Shown: positions 42,202-53,100 of the stretch, one piece after another
Layout of the letters: each line of letters opens with the position of its first letter
Numbering within the stretch: position 1 is the stretch's first letter
Origin: Candidatus Kryptoniota bacterium
GTDB taxonomy: Bacteria > Bacteroidota > Ignavibacteria > Kryptoniales > JAKASW01
Assembly (NCBI GenBank): GCA_024641705.1
Contig: JAHECO010000021.1
Coordinates: 1 to 58,956, forward strand
Direction of reading: 5' to 3'
DNA: 58,956 nucleotides
The notes under the pieces: model-generated
Database searches by the model: none
The model's input: only the letters and a program-made list of their open reading frames with translations
Told to the model about the DNA's origin: nothing
Translations under genes and position numbers: made by a program

Positions 42202-43584
42202 TTAAAACACCATCGTGAATATGGTCTGTTCACCCGGTTGCGAGGTCACGCTGATCAGCGCGTTGTGCAAATGGAGTATTTGGCGGGAGAGACTCAATCC
42301 GATCCCTGAGCCGTTGTCTTTTGTGGTGAAAAACGGGATGAATATCTTCCCCTGTATTTCCTTCGGAATGCCCGGCCCGTTGTCCTCCACCCGAATCGTT
42401 ACCTTCCCCTTCTCTTCGAGCCGTGCCGAGAGGCTTATCCTTCCACCCGGTTCCCCTTCCAGCGCCTGCACGGAGTTCATCACTAAGTTTAGAAGCACCT
42501 GCTCCAGCAAGCCCGGGTCGGCCGTCAGCTCGAGCGATTCAGGTTCCACTGCCGTCGTGAGCTCTATGCCGCCCTCGCTTATAGCCGACCTGACCAGCTG
42601 CTCGACGCGCGAGAAAAGCATCGCGATCGGGAAGATCACAAACTTAGGGTCGGGTACGTGAGTGAGGGTCCTGTAAGAATTGACGAAGCGAAGCAGCCCT
42701 TCGCTTCTCCCCTCGATTGTCCGAACCGCCGTTTGAACATCCTCGAGGACCGGCGGCAGCGGCTGTCCGTCTTCACGGGACTGCGTGTGCGTATCGGACA
42801 ACAGTTTGCTTGCCGTTGAAGCGAGCGACGCGATGGGTGCAATGGAGTTCACGATTTCGTGGGTGAGGACCCGTATCAGATTCTGCCACGCTTCCAGCTC
42901 GATCTCCTCCATTTCACCCCGCATGTCCTGCAATGACGCAAGGGTATAACTAATCCCCCGCATCCTGAATTGAGAGAGCTGCACGGCCAGCCGCACCGAG
43001 AGATTGTCGTTCTCTATGCGGACAAGGTTCTTGGTTTGCGGACTGTTGCTGCGCAGGATCTGGAAAAGATCGCTGCTTATAGCGGCAATCTCCTCCACAT
43101 TTTTGAGACGCGACACCCCGAGCAGCCGCTTGGCAGCCCTGTTCATGATATCTATCTCGCCGTCTCTCCTGAAAACCATGAGCCCAATAGTGAGCTGTTG
43201 CACGACGAACTGGAAGTATTGAAACTGACTTTCGCTTTCGGCTTTCATCTCTTCGAATCGCTGCGTTATTCTGTTGAGCGTCTTGTTCAGCTCATCGAAA
43301 GCCTTCCCCGTCCTGCCGACGCTGAAAGTCTGTGTGAAATCCTCCGCCTCGACCGCCTCCAGGAACCGGGCAAGATTCCGGCTCCTTCTTTCCATCCACC
43401 TGACCAATGCAAAGACCTGGTACAGCGCAAGAAGGCCCATGACCGCGGCCATCTCGTCCATCTTGGTGTGGAACAGCAGGTACGCAAACAACGAGATCGT
43501 GCAGGCCAGGAGAATTGCGCGCGCGACCGCGGCCATCCTGAAACGATCAAGGGTGATGAAACGGCCTTTCAGGTTACCAGGCAT
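42202..43584 (-). CDS. Membrane sensor histidine kinase
   Basis: A 460-residue kinase with two N-terminal membrane helices ('ARAILLACTISLFAYLLF', 'AAVMGLLALYQVFALVRW') and almost no periplasmic loop, a PAS-like domain (about 120-220, 'LTIGLMVFRRDGEIDIMNRAAKRLLG'), phosphoacceptor His in 'IRVLTHEIVNSIAPI', and HATPase motifs 'LLNLVMNSVQAL', 'VEDNGPGI', 'SGIGLSLSRQI'. NtrY-like layout. It is downstream of the NtrC-type regulator on the same strand and likely its partner. Sensing without a periplasmic domain suggests a membrane or cytoplasmic signal such as envelope stress. Confidence 0.9.
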   Translation of the reverse strand: MPGNLKGRFITLDRFRMAAVARAILLACTISLFAYLLFHTKMDEMAAVMGLLALYQVFALVRWMERRSRNLARFLEAVEAEDFTQTFSVGRTGKAFDELNKTLNRITQRFEEMKAESESQFQYFQFVVQQLTIGLMVFRRDGEIDIMNRAAKRLLGVSRLKNVEEIAAISSDLFQILRSNSPQTKNLVRIENDNLSVRLAVQLSQFRMRGISYTLASLQDMRGEMEEIELEAWQNLIRVLTHEIVNSIAPIASLASTASKLLSDTHTQSREDGQPLPPVLEDVQTAVRTIEGRSEGLLRFVNSYRTLTHVPDPKFVIFPIAMLFSRVEQLVRSAISEGGIELTTAVEPESLELTADPGLLEQVLLNLVMNSVQALEGEPGGRISLSARLEEKGKVTIRVEDNGPGIPKEIQGKIFIPFFTTKDNGSGIGLSLSRQILHLHNALISVTSQPGEQTIFTMVF

Positions 43585-43778: not shown

Positions 43779-45164
43779 TTATATCCCGAACTTCCTTATT
43801 CTTCTGTAGAGAGCAGTCCTGGTCAGGCCGAGTTCCTTTGCCGCCTCGGAGACGTTCCCGTGGTGCTTCTTAATCACCATCTCAATATGCCTCTTCTCCA
43901 CTTCGTTCAGCGAGTGATCCGATACCGTCCCTTCCCCGCGAGAGGCGGGGGAGGGTTTGAAAAGGATCTCGTCCGGTCGCAGATCGTCCGAATCGCTCAG
44001 GATCACTGCTCGCTCTATCACGTGCTGCAGTTCCCTGACATTACCCGGCCAGTGGTACCCGCCCAAGACCTTCATGGCCTCCGGGGATACGACGATGCCC
44101 GGCTTCTGGTACTTCCGGCCGTAGGTTTTCACGAAATGTTCGACCAAGAGAGGGATATCGTCCAAACGGTCGCGCAACGGGGGCAAATTGATCTCAACCG
44201 TATTTATACGATAGAGGAGATCTTCCCTGAATCTCTTCTGCATTACCATTTCATGGATCGGCATGTTCGTGGCTGTAATAAGACGGATGTCGATCGGTCG
44301 TGGCCGGTCGGAGCCCACTCTCATCACTTCGCGTCTCTCGACCACCGCCAGCAGTTTAGCCTGAAGGGTCAGCGAAAGATTGGCTATCTCGTCGAGAAAG
44401 AGAGTGCCCCCGGACGCAATCTCGAACCTCCCCATTCGTTCGCTCGTCGCACCCGTGAATGAGCCTTTCTCATGTCCGAAGAGCTCGCTTTCAAAAAGAG
44501 TCTCGCTGATTGCACCCATGTCGACAGCTATGAAAGGGTCGTCCGCCCGTTTCGAGAACCTGTGTATGGCGCGGGCCACCAGCTCTTTGCCCGTGCCGTT
44601 CTCACCGAGGAGGAGTATGTTCGCCTCGGTCACGGCGACCTTCCGTATGGTCTCAAATACGTCCGACATCGCCTGCGACTTCCCTACTATCTCCTGAAAC
44701 GGCTGGTCAAGATCGGCGCTCAACAACTTCTCTCGGGTACGCAAAGCGGCAAGTTTCACCTGAGACTCGCGGAGCTTAAGTGCCGATGAGAGGGTTGCCA
44801 GGATCTTCTCGTTCTGCCAAGGCTTCACGACAAAATCCGTTGCGCCCTCCTTGATAGCGCGGACCGCCGTCTCAATGTCACCATATGCCGTGATCAGTAT
44901 TACGACGGCACCGGGATCCACCTTGAGTATCTTGTTGAGCCACTGGAATCCTTCTTCGCCCGTCGTCACTCCCTTGGCGAAATTCATGTCCAAGAAGACA
45001 ACATCATATGACTTTGATTTGAGTCGTTTCTCGATGTTGCGCGGATCTCGTTCCGTCTCCACCGAACGTACATGCGGTTTGATGAGGAGATCGAATGCCG
45101 TGAGAACGGCGGTATCGTCGTCGACGATCAGCACGCTCCCTTTGTTTTCATTAGTTGAACCCAT
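43779..45164 (-). CDS. NtrC-family sigma-54 response regulator
   Basis: A 461-residue regulator: receiver domain ('VLIVDDDTAVLTAF', phospho-Asp in 'DVVFLDMNFAKG', Lys in 'FVVKPW'), AAA+ domain ('LGENGTGKELVARAIH', 'ELFGHEKGSFTGATSE' with GSFTGA in place of GAFTGA, 'GGTLFLDEIANLS'), and a Fis-type HTH at the end ('GNVSEAAKELGLTRTALYRRIRKF'). Between AAA+ and HTH a short segment (KPSPASRGEGTV) is encoded by palindromic repeat DNA. I start at ATG 45164 (MGSTNENKG). It is divergent from the ABC transporter genes, its probable target. Confidence 0.93.
   Translation of the reverse strand: MGSTNENKGSVLIVDDDTAVLTAFDLLIKPHVRSVETERDPRNIEKRLKSKSYDVVFLDMNFAKGVTTGEEGFQWLNKILKVDPGAVVILITAYGDIETAVRAIKEGATDFVVKPWQNEKILATLSSALKLRESQVKLAALRTREKLLSADLDQPFQEIVGKSQAMSDVFETIRKVAVTEANILLLGENGTGKELVARAIHRFSKRADDPFIAVDMGAISETLFESELFGHEKGSFTGATSERMGRFEIASGGTLFLDEIANLSLTLQAKLLAVVERREVMRVGSDRPRPIDIRLITATNMPIHEMVMQKRFREDLLYRINTVEINLPPLRDRLDDIPLLVEHFVKTYGRKYQKPGIVVSPEAMKVLGGYHWPGNVRELQHVIERAVILSDSDDLRPDEILFKPSPASRGEGTVSDHSLNEVEKRHIEMVIKKHHGNVSEAAKELGLTRTALYRRIRKFGI
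43929..43955. repeat. Palindromic repeat in frame in the response regulator gene
   Basis: CCCTTCCCCGC (43929-43939) and GCGGGGGAGGG (43945-43955) form an imperfect palindrome with a GAGAG loop. It encodes the 'SPASRGEG' linker before the HTH. The same kind of sequence is a common free-standing intergenic repeat in other genomes (from memory). Confidence 0.55.
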
Positions 45165-45374
45165 GCCCAAATCTAACCATCCCAGGTCGATAATGCGAAT
45201 ACTGCGCTCGAAATGTGGAGAAAGTCGGACCTGTATCGAATCCGAACACGTGAATACCAAAAACGAACAGGCCCAGTACGCGTTGTGCATTTGTGAAATC
45301 CAAAGCGCGATACGAAATTAGGCATGGACTTTGAACTTGCATTCACGAATAGCAACTCAGCAAGGACCGGCTGG

Positions 45375-46079
45375 ATGATACGAATTGCTGATCTCAAGAA
45401 AGTATACCGAACCGACGAGGTCGAGACGATTGCGGTAGCCAATGCCAATTTGCGTGTCGACGTCGGCGAATTTGTAGCTATCATGGGGCCGTCCGGCTCC
45501 GGCAAGACAACGCTGCTCACCATACTCGGGCTTCTCGACAGCCCAACCGAAGGGGAGTATTATTTCCTTGGAAACGATGTTTCACAATATTCGGAGAAGC
45601 AGCGCACAGCCCTCCGTAGAAGAAATATCGGCTTCGTTTTTCAGAACTTTAATCTGATAAACGAAATGACCGTGTACGAGAACATCGAACTCCCGCTGCT
45701 GTATATGGGAATCGGCTCCTCGGAGCGCAAAGCGATGGTGACGGAGATGCTGGAGAAGATGAGGATGACGACAAGACGGAACCATCTCCCGCAACAACTG
45801 TCCGGGGGACAGCAGCAGAGAGTCGCTGTTGCGAGAGCCGTTGTCGGAAGGCAAAGGCTTATCCTTGCGGATGAACCGACGGGAAATCTCGACTCGAGGA
45901 ACGGCGACGAAGTCATGAACCTTCTCGCCCAGCTGAACGAAGGAGGGGCAACAATAATCATCGTGACACACTCGACGGAGTACGCCAGCTGGGCCAACCG
46001 GACGGTGCAGCTGTACGACGGTCACCTTGTCAACGAAAACGTTACGCGTGGAGTGGAGGATGTTCTGGAGCTACGTTAA
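45375..46079 (+). CDS. ABC transporter ATP-binding protein (LolD/MacB type)
   Basis: A 234-residue ATPase: Walker A 'MGPSGSGKTTLL', Q-loop 'VFQNFNLINEMTVYENIELPL', signature 'LSGGQQQRVAVARA', Walker B 'LILADEPTGNLDS', H-loop 'IIVTHSTEYAS'. I start at ATG 45375 (MIRIADLKKVYRT), 8 nt after AAGGA; the open frame begins 17 codons earlier. It overlaps the permease gene by 20 bp. With that permease it forms a MacB-like exporter, possibly for the peptide made by the genes downstream. Confidence 0.93.
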   Translation: MIRIADLKKVYRTDEVETIAVANANLRVDVGEFVAIMGPSGSGKTTLLTILGLLDSPTEGEYYFLGNDVSQYSEKQRTALRRRNIGFVFQNFNLINEMTVYENIELPLLYMGIGSSERKAMVTEMLEKMRMTTRRNHLPQQLSGGQQQRVAVARAVVGRQRLILADEPTGNLDSRNGDEVMNLLAQLNEGGATIIIVTHSTEYASWANRTVQLYDGHLVNENVTRGVEDVLELR

Positions 46080-48444
46080 GACGATCTTCAGGAATATATC
46101 GAGCTCCAAGGTTTACTTCTTCATAAACATTGCGGGCCTTGCGATCGGCTTCACGGTCTTTACGCTGATAATGCTGTTCGTGTTGAACGAGTTCAACTAC
46201 GATACCTTCAACAGGAAGGCCGACCGGATATACAGGGTGGTCGAGACGCAGAAGGCGCCCGGGACAAAAGCGCAGCAGGTTGCCATAACCATGGGTGCTC
46301 TCGCGCCGGCGCTGGCATCCGGATTTCCGGAGGTGGAAGATGCCGCCAGATATATTCCATGGTCCACTGTTCTGTGCCGCTATGGCGATCGGCAGTTTTA
46401 CGAGAACGGCCTTTCGTTTGCCGATTCAAGTTTCTTCCAAATTTTCACCTTCCATTTTATCGAGGGAAACGAGTCCGCGGCATTTGACGGCCCCTATAGT
46501 GTGGTCATCGACAAATCGACTGCCCGAAAGTACTTCGGCGATGCCGATCCGATCGGAAGAACCCTGAGCATCCAGGCGGGTCTCGACCAGAACACGTTCC
46601 AGGTTAGTGGCGTGATTCAGGATTTCCCCCGGAACTCTCACCTGCACTTCAATATGATCGCCTCGATGAATGCGGTTGAAAGGCACTCGCGGTTCTTCAA
46701 CGGATGGGGGAATAACAACGCCGTCACCTATGTCCTGCTTAAGAATGGGTACTCTCCCGAAGAACTTGAGAAACAATTTCCGGCGCTCCTGAGAGCAAAC
46801 TTACCGGCGGACAGCTGGAATGCACTGGAGATGCATCTGCAACCGCTAAGAAACATTCACTTGTATTCGGACCAGATACTGTACCAGGTCAACTACAACA
46901 AAGGGGACATTGACTATGTGAGGTTGTTCGTGCTGATCGCGTTGTTCGTGATTATCCTCGCCTGCATAAACTTCATCAACCTGACAACCGCGCGTTCCGC
47001 AATCAGGAGCAGAGAGGTGGGAATTCGCAAGCTCCTCGGATCGTACCATTCACATCTCGTTTACCAGTTCATCGGGGAGTCGATAGCACTCTCACTGATC
47101 GGTCTTCTCCTCTCTTTTCCGGTAGTCGAAGCACTACTCCCGACGTTCAATTCTATAATGGGCGGCAGGATCATTATAGACTACAACAACGAGCTTTCGT
47201 TTCTCCTCATGCTGATTCTGGTCGCTACCATCGTCGGCCTCGTCGCCGGCTTCTACCCGGCCATCTACCTGTCGTCGTATCACCCGGTGGAACTCCTGAG
47301 GGGGAGGTTCTCATCCAGCAGGAGGGGAATCATTCTGAGAAAGATACTCATCGTGCTTCAGTTCAGCGTCGCGATCGGACTTGTGACAGGAACCGGTATA
47401 GTCGTCAGTCAGATGGATTACGTCTATAGCAAGCCGCTGGGGTTCGATAAGAACGATCTGATGTATATTCCCCTTCATGACGCGGAATCGAGAAACAAGA
47501 TCGGATTGCTCGGCGACCGGCTTCTCGGTAACCCGAAGATTCTGGCCGTCTCGGCGGGGGAACGGACGGGAGCGGGTAGAACTCAGGGGCCGGTCTCTGT
47601 TCTGGGAACGAATGGCCGGTCCCGTTTGCTGGTGAGGGAAAGCTATGTCGATTACGGTTACGAAAAGACAATGGGCATGCAAATTGTCGAAGGGAGGAGT
47701 TTCTCCCGAAATTTTCCCTCCGACTCAGCGTCCGCAATCATCAACGAGACTATGAGAAAAATCCTTGGCTGGAAGGATGCGATTGGGAAGCAAATCGAGA
47801 TGGACAATGGGCGAGTGTTTTCAGTGGTCGGCGTGGTAAAGGATTTCAACTATTCCTCTCTGCAGCACAAAATTGACCCCCTTGTTATCTGGCTCGATCC
47901 TGGCAGATGCCCCTACCTCCTCGTCAGAGTGGCTCCCCAGAATATGCAGTCGACGATCGACTTTGCAGGGAAGACCTGGGATTACGTATTGCCGAACCAC
48001 CCGTTCGAGTACGGTTTCGTGAACAATCACCTGGATAACCTGTACGGGAATGAACGCCAGACCGAGCACCTTCTCGCCCTCTTTTCCACAGTTGCCATAC
48101 TCATTGCGTGTCTGGGGTTGTTCGGGCTCACACTGCACACCACTGAGCAACGGACGAAGGAGATTGGCGTCAGAAAGGTTCTCGGGGCGTCGGTTGGGAG
48201 CATAGTATTTATGTTGTCGACGGAATCCATCAGGCTCGTCATTATCGCAGGCTTAGTTGCGTGGCCGACGGTATACTACCTGATGAGCAGGTGGCTTCAA
48301 AACTTCGAGTACAGAACCGCGATAAGCGCGTGGATATTTGTCCTTTCGGGAGTTGTCGTCTTCCTGGTTGCCATGTTTACCCTGAGTTTCCAGGCAATCA
48401 GGGCCGGCCTTACTAATCCAGTGAACGCACTAAGATATGAATGA
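46060..48444 (+). CDS. MacB/FtsX-type ABC permease (duplicated)
   Basis: A 794-residue permease of the Bacteroidota type: N-terminal helix ('FFINIAGLAIGFTVFTLIM'), periplasmic MacB-like domain ('FNRKADRIYRVVETQ'), FtsX helices (about 285-405), then a second set: helix ('ILIVLQFSVAIGLVTGTGIV'), periplasmic domain and FtsX block near the C-terminus ('TVAILIACLGLFGLTLHTTEQRTKEIGVRKVLGASV'). ATG 46060 is inside the ATPase gene. MacB-type pumps move peptides or lipid-linked substrates from periplasm outward. Its end overlaps or touches the following activator gene. Confidence 0.92.
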   Translation: MFWSYVKTIFRNISSSKVYFFINIAGLAIGFTVFTLIMLFVLNEFNYDTFNRKADRIYRVVETQKAPGTKAQQVAITMGALAPALASGFPEVEDAARYIPWSTVLCRYGDRQFYENGLSFADSSFFQIFTFHFIEGNESAAFDGPYSVVIDKSTARKYFGDADPIGRTLSIQAGLDQNTFQVSGVIQDFPRNSHLHFNMIASMNAVERHSRFFNGWGNNNAVTYVLLKNGYSPEELEKQFPALLRANLPADSWNALEMHLQPLRNIHLYSDQILYQVNYNKGDIDYVRLFVLIALFVIILACINFINLTTARSAIRSREVGIRKLLGSYHSHLVYQFIGESIALSLIGLLLSFPVVEALLPTFNSIMGGRIIIDYNNELSFLLMLILVATIVGLVAGFYPAIYLSSYHPVELLRGRFSSSRRGIILRKILIVLQFSVAIGLVTGTGIVVSQMDYVYSKPLGFDKNDLMYIPLHDAESRNKIGLLGDRLLGNPKILAVSAGERTGAGRTQGPVSVLGTNGRSRLLVRESYVDYGYEKTMGMQIVEGRSFSRNFPSDSASAIINETMRKILGWKDAIGKQIEMDNGRVFSVVGVVKDFNYSSLQHKIDPLVIWLDPGRCPYLLVRVAPQNMQSTIDFAGKTWDYVLPNHPFEYGFVNNHLDNLYGNERQTEHLLALFSTVAILIACLGLFGLTLHTTEQRTKEIGVRKVLGASVGSIVFMLSTESIRLVIIAGLVAWPTVYYLMSRWLQNFEYRTAISAWIFVLSGVVVFLVAMFTLSFQAIRAGLTNPVNALRYE

Positions 48445-48455
48445 GAAGGGTTATC

Positions 48456-49559
48456 ATGACTGATACAGCTATGTTCGGATTCTTTGGTTTGGTGGCGAGC
48501 GTCCATTCTCTTTTTCCCTGGAGCGCAGCGAGTCACCTATTGCCTGCTCCAATTCACGGCGTACACTTGCTGATGTCGGCTGTTGCCGCTGCCGCTCTCG
48601 GCTTCCCAATCGTCAGGAATGCCGCCGTCCAAAAGATTTACGACCGTGCCCGGAAGCTTTCCAAATCCGATCTCCCCATGTTGATTTCCGGCGAAACCGG
48701 GAGCGGAAAGGAAATCCTCGCGAGATACGTTCACGAGAATTCTTCGAGAAGTTCGACCGGGAGCTTCGTGGCGATAAACTGCGCGGCGATCCCCGACAAT
48801 TTACTGGAGTCCGAGCTCTTCGGGTACGTCAAGGGGGCCTTCACCGATGCGCGGGCCGACAAAACGGGCCTCTTTACTATGGCCAGCGGCGGCACGCTTT
48901 TTCTGGACGAGGTTGCAGAGATGAGCCTGGCCGTTCAGAAGAAGTTGTTGAGGGCGGTGGAGTACCAGGAGTTCTACCCCGTGGGCTCCGTCGTGCCGAA
49001 GAAGGTAGATTTCAGGTTGATCTGTGCTACAAGCGAGGACCTGGATCAGATGGTCAGGAACAAAACTTTCAGGATGGATCTGTACCACCGGATCCAGGCG
49101 TGTGAACTGACCTTGCCTCCTTTACGTGATCGGATCGACGAGATCCCGCTTCTGGTGCGGCATTTCCTCGACGAGAAAGGATACGGCGAAGTTGTCGCAT
49201 CACCGGATGTAATGGAAATATTCTCCTGCTACGGCTGGCCAGGCAACATAAGGGAGCTCAAAAATGTCGTGGAGTATGCCCTGGCTGTTCTCGAGGTTGG
49301 TGAAACGGTAATCGAGGTCGGTCATCTCCCCGCCGAGAAGTTCGGATCCATGGATTGCGGGATACTGCGGGGGGAAAGTCTTAACCTAAAGGAAAAGGAA
49401 AGGTGTTTCAAAGAAAACCTTGTAATTGCCGCGCTCACCGTTTGCTCCGGTGATTACAAGACAGTGGCAAAGTCATTGGGAACCTCAAAGAGCACAGTCT
49501 ACGAACTTGTCGGCGGCAAAACTACTAAGCAAAAAGCTTCCGCGGCAGTAGAAGAGTAG
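48456..49559 (+). CDS. Orphan sigma-54-dependent activator (no receiver domain)
   Basis: A 367-residue bacterial enhancer-binding protein. ATG 48456 is chosen because of GAGAAGGG 6 nt upstream; another ATG at 48441 overlaps the permease stop. The N-terminal ~50 residues are hydrophobic ('FFGLVASVHSLFPWSAASHLL') and may be a membrane or sensor segment. AAA+ motifs: 'ISGETGSGKEILARYVH', 'ELFGYVKGAFTDARADKTG' (GAFTDA replaces GAFTGA), 'GGTLFLDEVAEMS', 'YGWPGNIRELKNVVEYAL'. C-terminal HTH: 'DYKTVAKSLGTSKSTVYEL'. Position between the exporter and the radical SAM gene suggests it controls one or both. Confidence 0.9.
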   Translation: MTDTAMFGFFGLVASVHSLFPWSAASHLLPAPIHGVHLLMSAVAAAALGFPIVRNAAVQKIYDRARKLSKSDLPMLISGETGSGKEILARYVHENSSRSSTGSFVAINCAAIPDNLLESELFGYVKGAFTDARADKTGLFTMASGGTLFLDEVAEMSLAVQKKLLRAVEYQEFYPVGSVVPKKVDFRLICATSEDLDQMVRNKTFRMDLYHRIQACELTLPPLRDRIDEIPLLVRHFLDEKGYGEVVASPDVMEIFSCYGWPGNIRELKNVVEYALAVLEVGETVIEVGHLPAEKFGSMDCGILRGESLNLKEKERCFKENLVIAALTVCSGDYKTVAKSLGTSKSTVYELVGGKTTKQKASAAVEE

Positions 49560-49634
49560 CTCTTCCTTTCGGCAGGTCCGGCTGGATCTCCTCAAGTCTA
49601 ATCTTCCCTGGAACTGGAAAATCGGAGAGCTGTA

Positions 49635-49652
49635 TTTCCAGATTTCTGGAAA
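49635..49652. promoter_or_regulatory. Palindromic operator / enhancer site upstream of the radical SAM gene
   Basis: TTTCCAGATTTCTGGAAA has perfect 8-bp inverted arms (TTTCCAGA / TCTGGAAA) with a 2-bp spacer, and a further half-site CTGGAA lies at about 49608-49613. Such a palindrome ~115 bp before the start codon is a likely binding site for the orphan sigma-54 activator encoded just upstream. Confidence 0.5.
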
Positions 49653-49700: not shown

Positions 49701-49715
49701 CGGCACGGTTTTGGT
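49701..49715 (+). promoter_or_regulatory. Weak sigma-54-like promoter before the radical SAM gene
   Basis: CGGCACGGTTTTGGT matches the -24 element (GGCAC) well; the -12 element reads TGGT instead of TTGC, so only its G is conserved. It is 36 nt upstream of the start codon and 50 bp downstream of the palindrome, the right geometry, but the -12 match is poor. Confidence 0.3.
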
Positions 49716-49750
49716 AGAACTTCTGTGACCATCAAAACCGGAGTGTCGGT

Positions 49751-51082
49751 ATGAACTATAAAAAGAGCCGCTATAACGTAAATGTGAGAACGGAAACCGG
49801 TGTACGTCTTTTCAATGCCAGGACCGGTGCCATAGTCGAACTGTCATGCACAGATCCGCTGTTTCCAAAATTCGAGGAGTCCTGGAGGCGTGAGACATTC
49901 CAGCTGAGCGATCACGAATGGTTCCCGCCGCTGGAAGACGGCAAGTTCATCGTTCCTGAAGGAACACAGGAAATACCGGAATATATAGCATCGTTCAACG
50001 CAAGGCAGGCCACCAAAGACAGGATGAGCCTGATAGTACTGCCGACGGAGCAGTGCAACTTCAGGTGTGTGTACTGCTATGAAACCTTCCAGAAGCCGAG
50101 CATGAGCGAAGAGAATCAGGCTGCCCTGAAGAAATACATCTCAAAAACCATGGAGCAGGTCCGCGGTTTCATGATTGAATGGTTCGGCGGCGAACCTCTC
50201 CTCGGAATCGACGTCATCAGGGACATTTCCACGCATGCAGTCGCAGCTGCCAGGCAGCATAACGCCTCCTACGACTCATCAATTACGACGAACGGGTACC
50301 TGCTGACTCCGGAAGTCTTCGAGGAAGCGATCAGCGAGTGGAAGATATCGCGCTACCAGATCACGATAGATGGTCCCAGAGACTTTCACAACGGGCGCCG
50401 TGTCCTCGAGTCGGGAGGACACACTTACGACAGAATCATCTCCAATCTGCAGTACATGGCCAAATCGGATCATCCCGAGCTGATGTACATAGTGAGGATG
50501 AACGTCGACAGGGACAACCTGAGGACCGTGCCGGAATTCGCCGGGATTGTCAAGGACATCGTCGGCGACGACAGGAGGGCACGGTTTTATGTGAGGCCCA
50601 CATGGGGAGAAAGCAAGTTCGACCTCCTCACCAACTTCGAGACCCGCAGCCTTAGGAAGCAAATTATCGAAGTATGCAACGAACTCGGATTATATCTGTA
50701 TGACAGCGATCTCTTCCTGAACCCGGCACTGGGAATGTGTTATGCAGCCGATCCCCGTTCTCTTGTCATCGGTCCCGATGGCAGCGTTTATAAATGCACC
50801 TCCGCTTTTGACCTTCCGGAAAACCTGGTGGGCAGGTTGACCAGCGAAGGAACGATAAAGCTCAATCAGGAACACTTCAGCCTTTGGGTCGAATCCGGCA
50901 TCGAAAAGTATCCGCAGTGTCGGCGCTGCGCCGTGCTGCCGATATGCAATTCCGCTCATTGTCCCAAGATAGAAGTTACAAGATCGAAGCTGGGAAACCG
51001 GGACAACCATCCGGTGTGCCCTCCATACAAGGATCAAATCAAGATGTTCGTGGGCGGCGCACTTCAGGAGAAATTCGATTAG
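49751..51082 (+). CDS. Radical SAM/SPASM peptide-modifying enzyme
   Basis: A 443-residue radical SAM enzyme. An N-terminal ~90-residue region ('YNVNVRTETGVRLFNARTGAIVEL') resembles the leader-side part of peptide maturases. The [4Fe-4S] motif CX3CX2C is C102-C106-C109 ('TEQCNFRCVYCYETF'), followed by 'IEWFGGEPLLG' and 'TNGYLL'. The C-terminal SPASM region has 'GMCYAADPR', 'GSVYKCTSAF', 'YPQCRRCAVLPICNSAHCPK' and a last Cys in 'HPVCPPYKDQIK', enough for two auxiliary Fe-S clusters. SPASM enzymes of this layout install thioether or C-C crosslinks in ribosomal peptides. A Cys-containing 32-codon gene follows 77 bp downstream, the likely substrate. Confidence 0.93.
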   Translation: MNYKKSRYNVNVRTETGVRLFNARTGAIVELSCTDPLFPKFEESWRRETFQLSDHEWFPPLEDGKFIVPEGTQEIPEYIASFNARQATKDRMSLIVLPTEQCNFRCVYCYETFQKPSMSEENQAALKKYISKTMEQVRGFMIEWFGGEPLLGIDVIRDISTHAVAAARQHNASYDSSITTNGYLLTPEVFEEAISEWKISRYQITIDGPRDFHNGRRVLESGGHTYDRIISNLQYMAKSDHPELMYIVRMNVDRDNLRTVPEFAGIVKDIVGDDRRARFYVRPTWGESKFDLLTNFETRSLRKQIIEVCNELGLYLYDSDLFLNPALGMCYAADPRSLVIGPDGSVYKCTSAFDLPENLVGRLTSEGTIKLNQEHFSLWVESGIEKYPQCRRCAVLPICNSAHCPKIEVTRSKLGNRDNHPVCPPYKDQIKMFVGGALQEKFD

Positions 51083-51159
51083 AAGAACCAACTGAGTAGT
51101 CTCAATAAACGATCCTGTAACACTAAATCACTGGCGAGAGAGGAAAGGAGGTGAAACAG

Positions 51160-51258
51160 ATGAAGATAATTGCAAAACCTAAGGTCATTGAACAGTTAGC
51201 TTACGGTCCCGACCTGAACTGCACGATGTGTAACTCAAATCTTTGTTGGCCCGATTGA
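51160..51258 (+). CDS. Candidate RiPP precursor peptide (three-Cys core)
   Basis: A 32-residue ORF, too short for routine calling. It has the strongest ribosome binding site in the area: AAAGGAGGTGA (51144-51154 region), 8 nt before ATG 51160. The first ~19 residues (MKIIAKPKVIEQLAYGPDL) are basic/hydrophobic and leader-like; the end is NCTMCNSNLCWPD with C21, C24 and C29. A short peptide with a Cys/Asn/Ser core right after a radical SAM/SPASM gene is the classic precursor arrangement (as in sactipeptides, ranthipeptides and related groups). An in-frame GTG at 51151 overlaps the SD and is less likely. I do not recognise the family. Crosslink type, cleavage site and activity are unknown. Confidence 0.8.
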   Translation: MKIIAKPKVIEQLAYGPDLNCTMCNSNLCWPD

Positions 51259-51341: not shown

Positions 51342-51596
51342 ATGTTTGCCAGAGACTGTCCCGGCGAATGCAGTCACTTCTTGGTGATCGTTTCGGGAGG
51401 CAGGAAAGCACACATCAGTACAGGCTTTCTCGCTCACCCGGACAGTAAGGTAGGGGTGGCGGCCGGGACAGCCGCGGCATACAGAAGGCAGTTTCCATCT
51501 ATGCCCGCCACGGAGAGCGACCTAAGGGCAATGGGCATACTATACGGTCGCCGGGAACATTTTAGATTCACGAGCCCGGCTGAAAGGAGAATCTGA
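51342..51596 (+). CDS. Unknown 84-residue ORF in the peptide locus
   Basis: An ORF beginning MFARDCPGECSHF, with no recognised domain, no membrane segment and no clear ribosome binding site. It ends in TGAG directly at the GTG of the next ORF (TGAGTG). Its position between the precursor and the hybrid kinase, and the two early cysteines, make it worth keeping, but it may be non-coding. Confidence 0.3.
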   Translation: MFARDCPGECSHFLVIVSGGRKAHISTGFLAHPDSKVGVAAGTAAAYRRQFPSMPATESDLRAMGILYGRREHFRFTSPAERRI

Positions 51597-51827
51597 GTGT
51601 ATTCCATCTCTAGTGGCATGATGAGGCGAAGTGCAAAAGTTACTTCGGCGGAAGGCAAGCATACCCTTCCTGCGACGGAGGCGAACAACCCCTGGGCAGA
51701 GCCCCAGGATCTTCAGCAATCATACCGTAATCGCGCAACCCCCTTTTGCAGGTACAACGACGGCATCGTGGGGCGCATAGAGTTTGAAATCGTGCGCAGA
51801 ACAGAAGTCGGATCACATGAGTCGTGA
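51597..51827 (+). CDS. Unknown 76-residue ORF in the peptide locus
   Basis: Starts at GTG 51597, 6 nt after a good GAAAGGAGA (51582-51590), and ends at 51827, overlapping the start of the hybrid kinase by 11 bp. The product is polar ('TEANNPWAEPQDLQQSYRNR') with a single Cys and no known domain. The strong ribosome binding site and the overlap support translation, perhaps to couple the kinase; protein identity unknown. Confidence 0.4.
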   Translation: MYSISSGMMRRSAKVTSAEGKHTLPATEANNPWAEPQDLQQSYRNRATPFCRYNDGIVGRIEFEIVRRTEVGSHES

Positions 51828-53100
51828 AGGCAAGCGAAGACATACGCGGGACAACGCCTCAAGTAAGCCGGACCCCCTCGGCGACCGCCAGTATGTCAGT
51901 CAGCACCTTTCGGAAGAGAAACTCAGACGACAGTCTCAGGAACAGCTGCTTCAATCACAGAGGCTCGAGGCGCTTGGGACTCTTGTCGGCGGAATCGCTC
52001 ATGATTTCAACAACATCCTGAACGTGATCTCGGGTCATGTGTCGCTCATGGAAAGATGGAGGGAGAGTCCTGAACGATTCATGAAAAGCTTCGAGGCCGT
52101 CAAGAAGGCAACCGAACGCGGTGCCGGCACGGCCAAACAGCTCCTCACCTTCGCGCGTAAAGTCGAAGTAGTGACAGAATCGGTCAGGATGGAAGAGGTC
52201 ATCGATGAACTGGTAGTGTTCCTGAAGGGGACCTTCCCCGAGAAGATCGTTTTCCGCGTCGAGATCGGTCCTGATATCCCCGCAATTTCCGCCGATTCAA
52301 ACCAAATCCACCAGGCACTTCTCAATCTCTGTCTCAACGCACGCGATGCCATTCCGAATTCGGGTACCATAAACATCGTCGTTAAGAACGTCGGGCCGGG
52401 AATCCTGAAGGGACACTCGCGTGAAGCTGAGGCCGGAAGGTATGTACAGGTTGCAGTATCGGATACCGGCTCCGGAATGGACAGCGAAACCCTGAGCCAC
52501 ATTTTTGAACCGTTCTTCACGACGAAGGCGAATGGACGCGGCACAGGCCTCGGTCTGTCCGTGGTATTCGGGATCATGAAAGCGCATAACGGTTTCATCG
52601 ACGTCGAAAGCAAGGCCGGTATGGGCACCTCTTTCTCTCTTTATTTTCCGGCCCTTCCTCAACCGGCCGAGGTGCCGCCCAGAAAAAAGGTAAGAACAGA
52701 AATACCGAAAGGGCACGGCGAACTGATCCTTGTGATAGAGGACGAGGAGCCCCTGAGAGATTTCCTGAAGACGGTTCTTGAAGAAAGTGGATACAGAGTG
52801 ATCCTCGAATCCGACGGAATCAAGGGCCTCCAGACCTACCGGGAAGAAATGGACGAAATCAATCTCGTTCTTCTCGACATGGGGCTTCCGAGAATGAGCG
52901 GGAACGAAGTCCTGGAGGAACTCGTACTATTGAACGCACACGTGAAAGTGATCTCGGCAAGCGGTTACATCGAGCCGGAGGTTAAGTCAGGCGCCTTCGA
53001 CATCGGGGCTCTGGATTTCCTCCCAAAGCCGTACATGATAGAAGACCTGCTCGTGAAGATTCACGACGTGCTGCAAGCGGGGTCCGCTCCGAGCATGTAA
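51817..53100 (+). CDS. Hybrid histidine kinase with receiver, no sensor domain
   Basis: A 427-residue protein: a short basic N-terminus and coiled coil (about 30-55), HisKA with His in 'LVGGIAHDFNNILNVISGHVSLM', HATPase ('LLNLCLNARDAIP', 'VSDTGSGMD', 'GRGTGLGLSVVFGI'), then a C-terminal receiver ('LVIEDEEPLRDFLKTVLE', phospho-Asp in 'LVLLDMGLPRMSG', Lys in 'DFLPKPYM'). No PAS, GAF or membrane part precedes the kinase core, unlike most relatives. It closes the radical SAM locus and may feed the orphan activator or the NtrC-type regulator. Confidence 0.88.
   Translation: MSREGKRRHTRDNASSKPDPLGDRQYVSQHLSEEKLRRQSQEQLLQSQRLEALGTLVGGIAHDFNNILNVISGHVSLMERWRESPERFMKSFEAVKKATERGAGTAKQLLTFARKVEVVTESVRMEEVIDELVVFLKGTFPEKIVFRVEIGPDIPAISADSNQIHQALLNLCLNARDAIPNSGTINIVVKNVGPGILKGHSREAEAGRYVQVAVSDTGSGMDSETLSHIFEPFFTTKANGRGTGLGLSVVFGIMKAHNGFIDVESKAGMGTSFSLYFPALPQPAEVPPRKKVRTEIPKGHGELILVIEDEEPLRDFLKTVLEESGYRVILESDGIKGLQTYREEMDEINLVLLDMGLPRMSGNEVLEELVLLNAHVKVISASGYIEPEVKSGAFDIGALDFLPKPYMIEDLLVKIHDVLQAGSAPSM

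Follow-up and report, generated by a model that had tools for sequence, protein, structure and literature searches.

Introduction

Short precursor genes that are co-conserved with a radical SAM/SPASM maturase mark RiPPs of the radical SAM type. The maturase NxxcB bonds a Cys to the C-beta of an upstream Asn, and ranthipeptides is the joint name under which its product stands with SCIFFs and freyrasin, which bear other non-alpha thioethers (PMC8326336; PMC13361665). PapB links Cys to Asp or Glu through thioethers and tolerates Cys-Xn-Asp substrates with n from 0 to 6 (PMC9413430).

Here we describe a locus in a window of 58,956 nucleotides (the whole stretch of DNA that was analysed) in which such a maturase and a short precursor gene are co-conserved. 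Like the NxxC ranthipeptides (NxxcA/NxxcB, Streptococcus orisratti), it has an Asn shortly before a Cys, a radical SAM/SPASM neighbour and, as predicted here, a bridge from the Cys sulfur to the Asn C-beta. Unlike the NxxC system, with one bridge in an N-x2-C motif, it has tandem N-x3-C units (N-x3-C in 8/8 peptides), and a sigma-54 activator with a tandem operator stands where NxxC has Rgg/SHP quorum-sensing control; neither N-x2-C nor Rgg/SHP control, by which NxxC RaS-RiPPs are defined, was found in this comparison of precursor motifs and regulators. The hosts of this cluster are Bacteroidota.

The leader start MKIIAKP resembles MKFIKKP of the Clo7bot system (TIGR04334) and fits its MKxIxKP pattern, several Clo7bot peptides contain N-x2-C, and the enzyme is 27.5% identical to the Clo7bot maturase. 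However, it scores 159.7 bits against a TIGR04334 cut-off of 600, most Clo7bot peptides examined have more than three Cys whereas the single precursor here has three, and the transporter is different. The TIGR04463 maturases are the best-scoring named family (E 6.8e-58), but the 196.4 bits obtained lie below their cut-off of 525; their annotated plasmid example has the 679-aa CefA as partner. The SCIFF maturase CteB (5WHY/5WGG) shares the RRE, radical SAM and SPASM arrangement over a nearly full-length structural match, yet is only 17–20% identical, and SCIFF precursors carry six Cys over about 45 residues, compared to three in 32 here. With PapB/freyrasin the peptide shares a conserved C-terminal Cys and acidic residue (C-x2-[DE]), but PapA contains six C-x3-D motifs and the peptide here one C-x2-[DE], and the enzyme reaches 103 bits with the PapB model (cut-off 340). 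Judged by sequence, the system is not a member of TIGR04463, Clo7bot, PapB, SCIFF or NxxC as these are defined.

Results

Features of the Locus

The following features were assigned (coordinates of the window).

42202-43584, minus strand: sensor histidine kinase; matches in cluster-free genomes at most 43% identical
43779-45290, minus strand: NtrC-type response regulator, transcribed away from the ABC genes; start codon uncertain
45324-46079, plus strand: ABC transporter ATPase; top NCBIfam score to the darobactin exporter DarD, below cut-off; start codon uncertain
46027-48444, plus strand: MacB/ADOP-like ABC permease, 805 aa; start codon uncertain
48441-49559, plus strand: sigma-54 activator (AAA+ enhancer-binding protein), immediately before the enzyme gene
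49604-49651, plus strand: tandem palindromes TTCC-N8-GGAA, starts 32 bp apart, putative activator sites
49701-49716, plus strand: sigma-54-like -24/-12 promoter CGGCACGGTTTTGGTA (orthologues: GGCACGGTATTGGCA), downstream of the palindromes
49751-51082, plus strand: radical SAM/SPASM peptide maturase, 443-aa ORF; predicted RRE-like N-terminal domain (about 1-88), radical SAM core (C102/C106/C109) and SPASM domain
51145-51154, plus strand: ribosome-binding site of the peptide gene, AAGGAGGTGA; GGAGGTGA kept in 8/8 orthologous loci
51160-51258, plus strand: precursor peptide gene, 32 aa, MKIIAKPKVIEQLAYGPDLNCTMCNSNLCWPD
51160-51186, plus strand: leader motif MKIIAKPKV (consensus MK-x-[IV]-x-x-PKV)
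51217-51231, plus strand: core unit 1, N20-C21-T-M-C24 (N-x3-C), 7/8 orthologues
51232-51246, plus strand: core unit 2, N25-S-N-L-C29 (N-x3-C), 8/8 orthologues
51244-51255, plus strand: C-terminal C-x2-[DE]-COOH, here CWPD; acidic last residue in 8/8
51784-53100, plus strand: hybrid histidine kinase, closing the block

The Maturase Is Conserved Within One Genus

A search of the whole genomes of 149 relatives identified eight orthologues of the maturase, 63–78% identical and all from the genus of the window; the source organisms were Bacteroidota metagenome-assembled genomes. Seven of these loci are complete. In the eighth (G003) the contig ends before the position of the peptide gene, and it was left out of the peptide counts. 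With the window this gives eight complete loci and nine in total. The initial annotation had called a full radical SAM/SPASM enzyme, which agrees with our findings: the CX3CX2C motif is formed by C102, C106 and C109, and the SPASM Cys residues C330, C349, C390, C393, C399, C404 and C423 were invariant in the eight genus orthologues. The enzyme scored above the Radical_SAM cut-off in the Pfam scan, and no curated NCBIfam or Pfam family claims either the maturase or the peptide.

The AlphaFold model of the maturase had a mean pLDDT of 83.5 and predicts, N-terminal to the radical SAM core, a domain rich in beta structure. CteB was its top structural match (Z 24.6, rmsd 4.9, 382 residues, 17% identity); since this match spans model residues 6–439, it covers the leader-binding domain as well. 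The anSME match was less than one Z unit behind, yet spans only residues 90–442.

The Short Open Reading Frame Is a Gene

The 32-codon reading frame starts 77 bp after the enzyme stop codon, and five bases separate AAGGAGGTGA from its ATG. It contains three Cys, all within nine residues. Its position and its good ribosome-binding site, both noted in the initial annotation, were confirmed, and the peptide gene adjoins the enzyme in 8/8 complete loci (window included) with position and Shine-Dalgarno sequence unchanged. The proposed pairing of enzyme and Cys peptide in a RiPP locus thus held when looked for beside the enzyme homologues, as none of the complete loci lacked the peptide. The seven orthologous peptides are MKVVVAPKVQVQQPDAEQQPGTNCLGCNALICVPD, MKVVVAPKVQVQQPETEQQPGTNCLGCNALLCVPD, (TTG)MKIIVSPKVSADPQENIQNPGTNCIFCNTLLCVPD, MKIIVSPKVDEETERTVDELCSGSNMLLCWPD, (TTG)MKIIVEPKVEVESDSDSRQPGANCLFCNTLFCTAD, MKIIVAPKVLVLPEDLKDTPGANCWGCNTMFCVPE and MKMVVAPKVLLQSEDTSWTPGLNCGGCNYMFCVPD.

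The pN/pS ratio of the peptide gene was below 1 in 28/28 pairs, with 0.11 for the closest one. Across leader and core codons identity was 80% at position 2 and 43% at position 3. Because of this ratio and the contrast between codon positions, we conclude that the reading frame is a real gene under purifying selection. The identification of the cluster and its precursor is firm.

A profile of the eight precursors was compared to 395 genomes of the phylum. The sole clear match was the copy in this genome (E 1.4e-16), and the next one (E 3.3e-4) has a stop in its reading frame; the peptide family was therefore not found outside the genus at the sensitivity of the profile search. NCBIfam and Pfam scans of the peptides gave only one chance-level match, to an actinobacterial precursor, and the Rfam search gave none. 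In the window, REP-like repeats (core GACTGTCCCGG) lie behind the peptide gene at 51349-51375; L003, L008, and L009 have them as well, also just after this gene.

Leader and Core Motifs of the Peptide

Residues M1, K2, P7, K8, V9, C21, N25, and C29 were invariant among the eight aligned peptides, and the conserved core consists of the tandem units NCTMC-NSNLC. The core had previously been read as C-x2-C-x4-C followed by W. The W did not prove to be conserved, being V or T in 6/8 peptides, and the core is better described as two N-x3-C units and a C-terminal C-x2-[DE]. In the peptide of L006 (G005) N20 and C24 are both replaced, while C21, N25, C29, and D32 are retained. Such joint replacement, a single event, is how the loss of a bonded Asn-Cys pair would be expected to look.

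Precursors Beside Related Enzymes

Related enzymes, 29–40% identical over the best segment, were found in Actinomycetota, Bacillota, and Pseudomonadota, with small Cys peptides adjoining. Precursors beside these relatives were selected by hand among small Cys-containing ORFs, the criteria being position, Cys content and ribosome-binding site but not Asn. Among 14 such precursors, an Asn stood exactly three residues before a Cys in 11 (2.6 in shuffles) and four residues before in 6 (2.5 in shuffles, P 0.017). In a separate set of nine named-plasmid loci, chosen in the same way and examined after the motif had been noticed, 8/9 had an Asn at -3 or -4 (3.4 in shuffles). The motifs include NIYKC in Deinococcus, NNGC in Clo7bot, NSGDC and NTGTC in Rhizosphaericola, NSGC in Rhizobium, and NGNC in Acetobacter. 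CefA, outside the nine-locus count, is an exception: every fifth residue is a Cys, and the part of its sequence that was examined has no N-x2/3-C. Whereas N-x2/3-C is kept in the distant relatives, C-x2/3-[DE] mostly is not. Close counterparts of the leader MKIIAKPK are MKFIKKPA in Clo7bot, MKLIAKPK in a paralogous G010 system and the actinobacterial MTWIAK.

Some related loci have features of their own. On a Rhizosphaericola mali plasmid (L119 916-2405) five tandem precursors with GG-type leaders, most having several N-x3-C motifs, adjoin a related radical SAM enzyme and a peptidase-containing ABC transporter, which makes this a good comparison system. On a Paraclostridium plasmid (L117 481-2384) roughly nine peptides of the Clo7bot type form an array in front of one maturase; several of them combine a leader similar to MKFIKKPA with N-x2-C motifs. 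Contig 102 of G010 (L113 3322-6528) has a truncated yifB/comM-like gene that is immediately followed by a gene for a serine recombinase and by a radical SAM enzyme whose precursor is MKLIAKPKDEKK...ECCVNHLCGCSK; this locus is likely to be a mobile RiPP island. An HFCD-type flavoprotein (PF02441) adjoins the radical SAM enzyme in Catenulispora and Halobacillus (L051 7623-8297 and L052 5384-5935), where the precursors are very short and end in Cys (MTWIAKSRINSKRERKLDNYGC; ...DTNNCNC); L052 also contains a B12-binding radical SAM protein. A further RiPP variant, in which the C-terminal Cys is decarboxylated following thioether formation, is possible for these two loci.

Putative Upstream Operator and Promoter

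The TTCC-N8-GGAA doublet was present upstream of the enzyme gene in 9/9 loci. Both copies were exact in 8/9, the first palindrome being degenerate in L009, and the exact doublet occurs only once in this genome. We infer that it is bound by the sigma-54 activator encoded next to it. A search of a limited collection of papers turned up no sigma-54 control of other radical SAM RiPPs.

The other operator doublets, those of G002, G005, and G007, have no enzyme/peptide pair next to them. The doublets in G002 and G007 (L110 7413 and L112 8277) are found upstream of a gene for a secreted, lipoprotein-like protein (MDKH[NK]LLQR...SFSCR[ST]SPTGP), possibly a second target of the activator.

The Cluster Is Present or Absent as a Unit

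In the loci that were long enough the block is syntenic, with kinase and response regulator, ATPase, permease, activator, enzyme, peptide, and hybrid kinase. Four genomes of the genus that have no enzyme retain the flanks (a large flanking protein 75–84% identical and a DODA-like gene), and the cluster genes are absent from the corresponding site. Elsewhere in the enzyme-free genomes the permease and the kinase had no match better than 43% identical, and the activator none better than 52%. The block is gained or lost as a unit at one fixed site. When trees were compared to the grouping of the flanks with respect to horizontal transfer, the enzyme tree did not reject this grouping (p 0.14) and the permease tree did (p 0.006). 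None of the cluster genes was identified as a leader protease. A flanking M16 peptidase was considered for this role and discarded, as it also occurs in a genome without the cluster.

Discussion

Proposed Product and Mechanism

The initial annotation suggested that the locus may be a new class. As worded this was not supported, since N-x2/3-C is common to related precursors and the leader is Clo7bot-like. The best reading is a new variant of the ranthipeptide type and not a wholly new class; it is counted as new because peptide and enzyme belong to no NCBIfam or Pfam family. We consider it fairly probable that the cluster makes a ranthipeptide-type RiPP with two Asn-Cys rings, under sigma-54 control, with an RRE-bound leader and ABC export. 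The system most likely operates in the manner of an NxxC ranthipeptide, with two rings.

Starting from the genes, their co-conservation, coding selection, motifs, operator, presence or absence as a unit and fold match, we infer activator-operator pairing, bond type and partners, export and sensing as follows. The sigma-54 activator, on the tandem TTCC-N8-GGAA, would direct transcription of enzyme and peptide from the -24/-12 promoter. The RRE-like N-terminal domain of the enzyme would bind the extreme N-terminal leader MK-x-[IV]-x-x-PKV. The enzyme would then cleave SAM and take a hydrogen from an Asn side chain, and the Asn carbon, most likely C-beta, would be joined to the Cys sulfur four residues further on (N20-C24 and N25-C29), each bridge costing 2 H; the N-x3-C pattern gives good reason to propose this bond type and these partners. 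C21 and the C-terminal C-x2-[DE] may serve for an additional bridge, for metal binding or for recognition. A protease would take off the leader before the MacB-like ABC transporter exports the product, and the kinases would sense the product or its target.

Alternative Explanations

Some observations were counted against the Asn-Cys reading. The covariation of the motif is one loss event (L006), the spacing is N-x3-C compared to N-x2-C in the characterised case, the characterised relatives are distant (CteB 17–20% identity; PapB model 103 compared to 340 bits), and C21 is likewise invariant; in addition, the related precursors were hand-picked, the plasmid set was looked at once the motif was known, and no protease for the leader was identified among the cluster genes. 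A PapB-like enzyme, with the main bridge from C29 to the C-terminal Asp/Glu and Asn merely structural, would account for the invariant C-x2-[DE] with D or E last in 8/8 peptides and for the weak PapB-model score, and PapB itself bonds Cys to Asp or Glu and tolerates a range of Cys-Xn-Asp spacings (PMC9413430). We regard it as unlikely, given that N-x2/3-C persists in distant relatives where C-x2/3-[DE] is mostly lost, that there is one C-x2-[DE] per peptide and that the PapB score is far under the cut-off. Slightly less likely still is a sactipeptide with thioethers from Cys to alpha-carbon: a radical SAM/SPASM enzyme with a Cys peptide suits sactisynthases and SkfB is among the structural matches, but the top match is the ranthisynthase CteB, and the Asn, conserved at a constant distance from the Cys, argues for attack on a side chain, as occurs in NxxcA.

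The modified peptide could also be a metal-binding peptide or redox cofactor and not a secreted bioactive compound, consistent with three Cys within nine residues and with its detection in one genus only. This seems improbable for a peptide that is linked to an ABC exporter and kinases and is dispensable, being absent from four related genomes; moreover, Cys bound in thioethers would not ligate metal as thiolates. That the reading frame is a chance ORF or a regulatory leader peptide, and no precursor, is very improbable: its shortness and the REP-like repeats behind it would fit, but pN/pS, the conservation of Shine-Dalgarno sequence, leader and core in 8/8 loci, and the lack of an Rfam match speak against it.

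The preferred Asn-Cys reading can be taken further, although only tentatively and with less confidence than the ranthipeptide assignment itself. The cluster would represent a new subclass in which one enzyme makes two back-to-back N-x3-C rings, possibly with a third bridge from C21/C29 to the C-terminal Asp/Glu, giving a compact polycycle of ~13 residues; and an MxxI-x-K leader with an N-x2/3-C core would be a recognition code common to a far larger group of enzymes (Bacteroidota, Actinomycetota, Deinococcota, Pseudomonadota, and Bacillota) filed under separate names.

Altogether, the locus offers a clean and small enzyme-substrate pair for the Asn-Cys thioether hypothesis, with 32 amino acids, two repeats and eight natural variants, one of which is without unit 1. 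It adds sigma-54 control to the picture of radical SAM RiPPs. The comparison suggests N-x2/3-C as a signature common to Clo7bot, NxxC and TIGR04463-like enzymes, and if this is true, the precursors of many orphan maturases would become recognisable.
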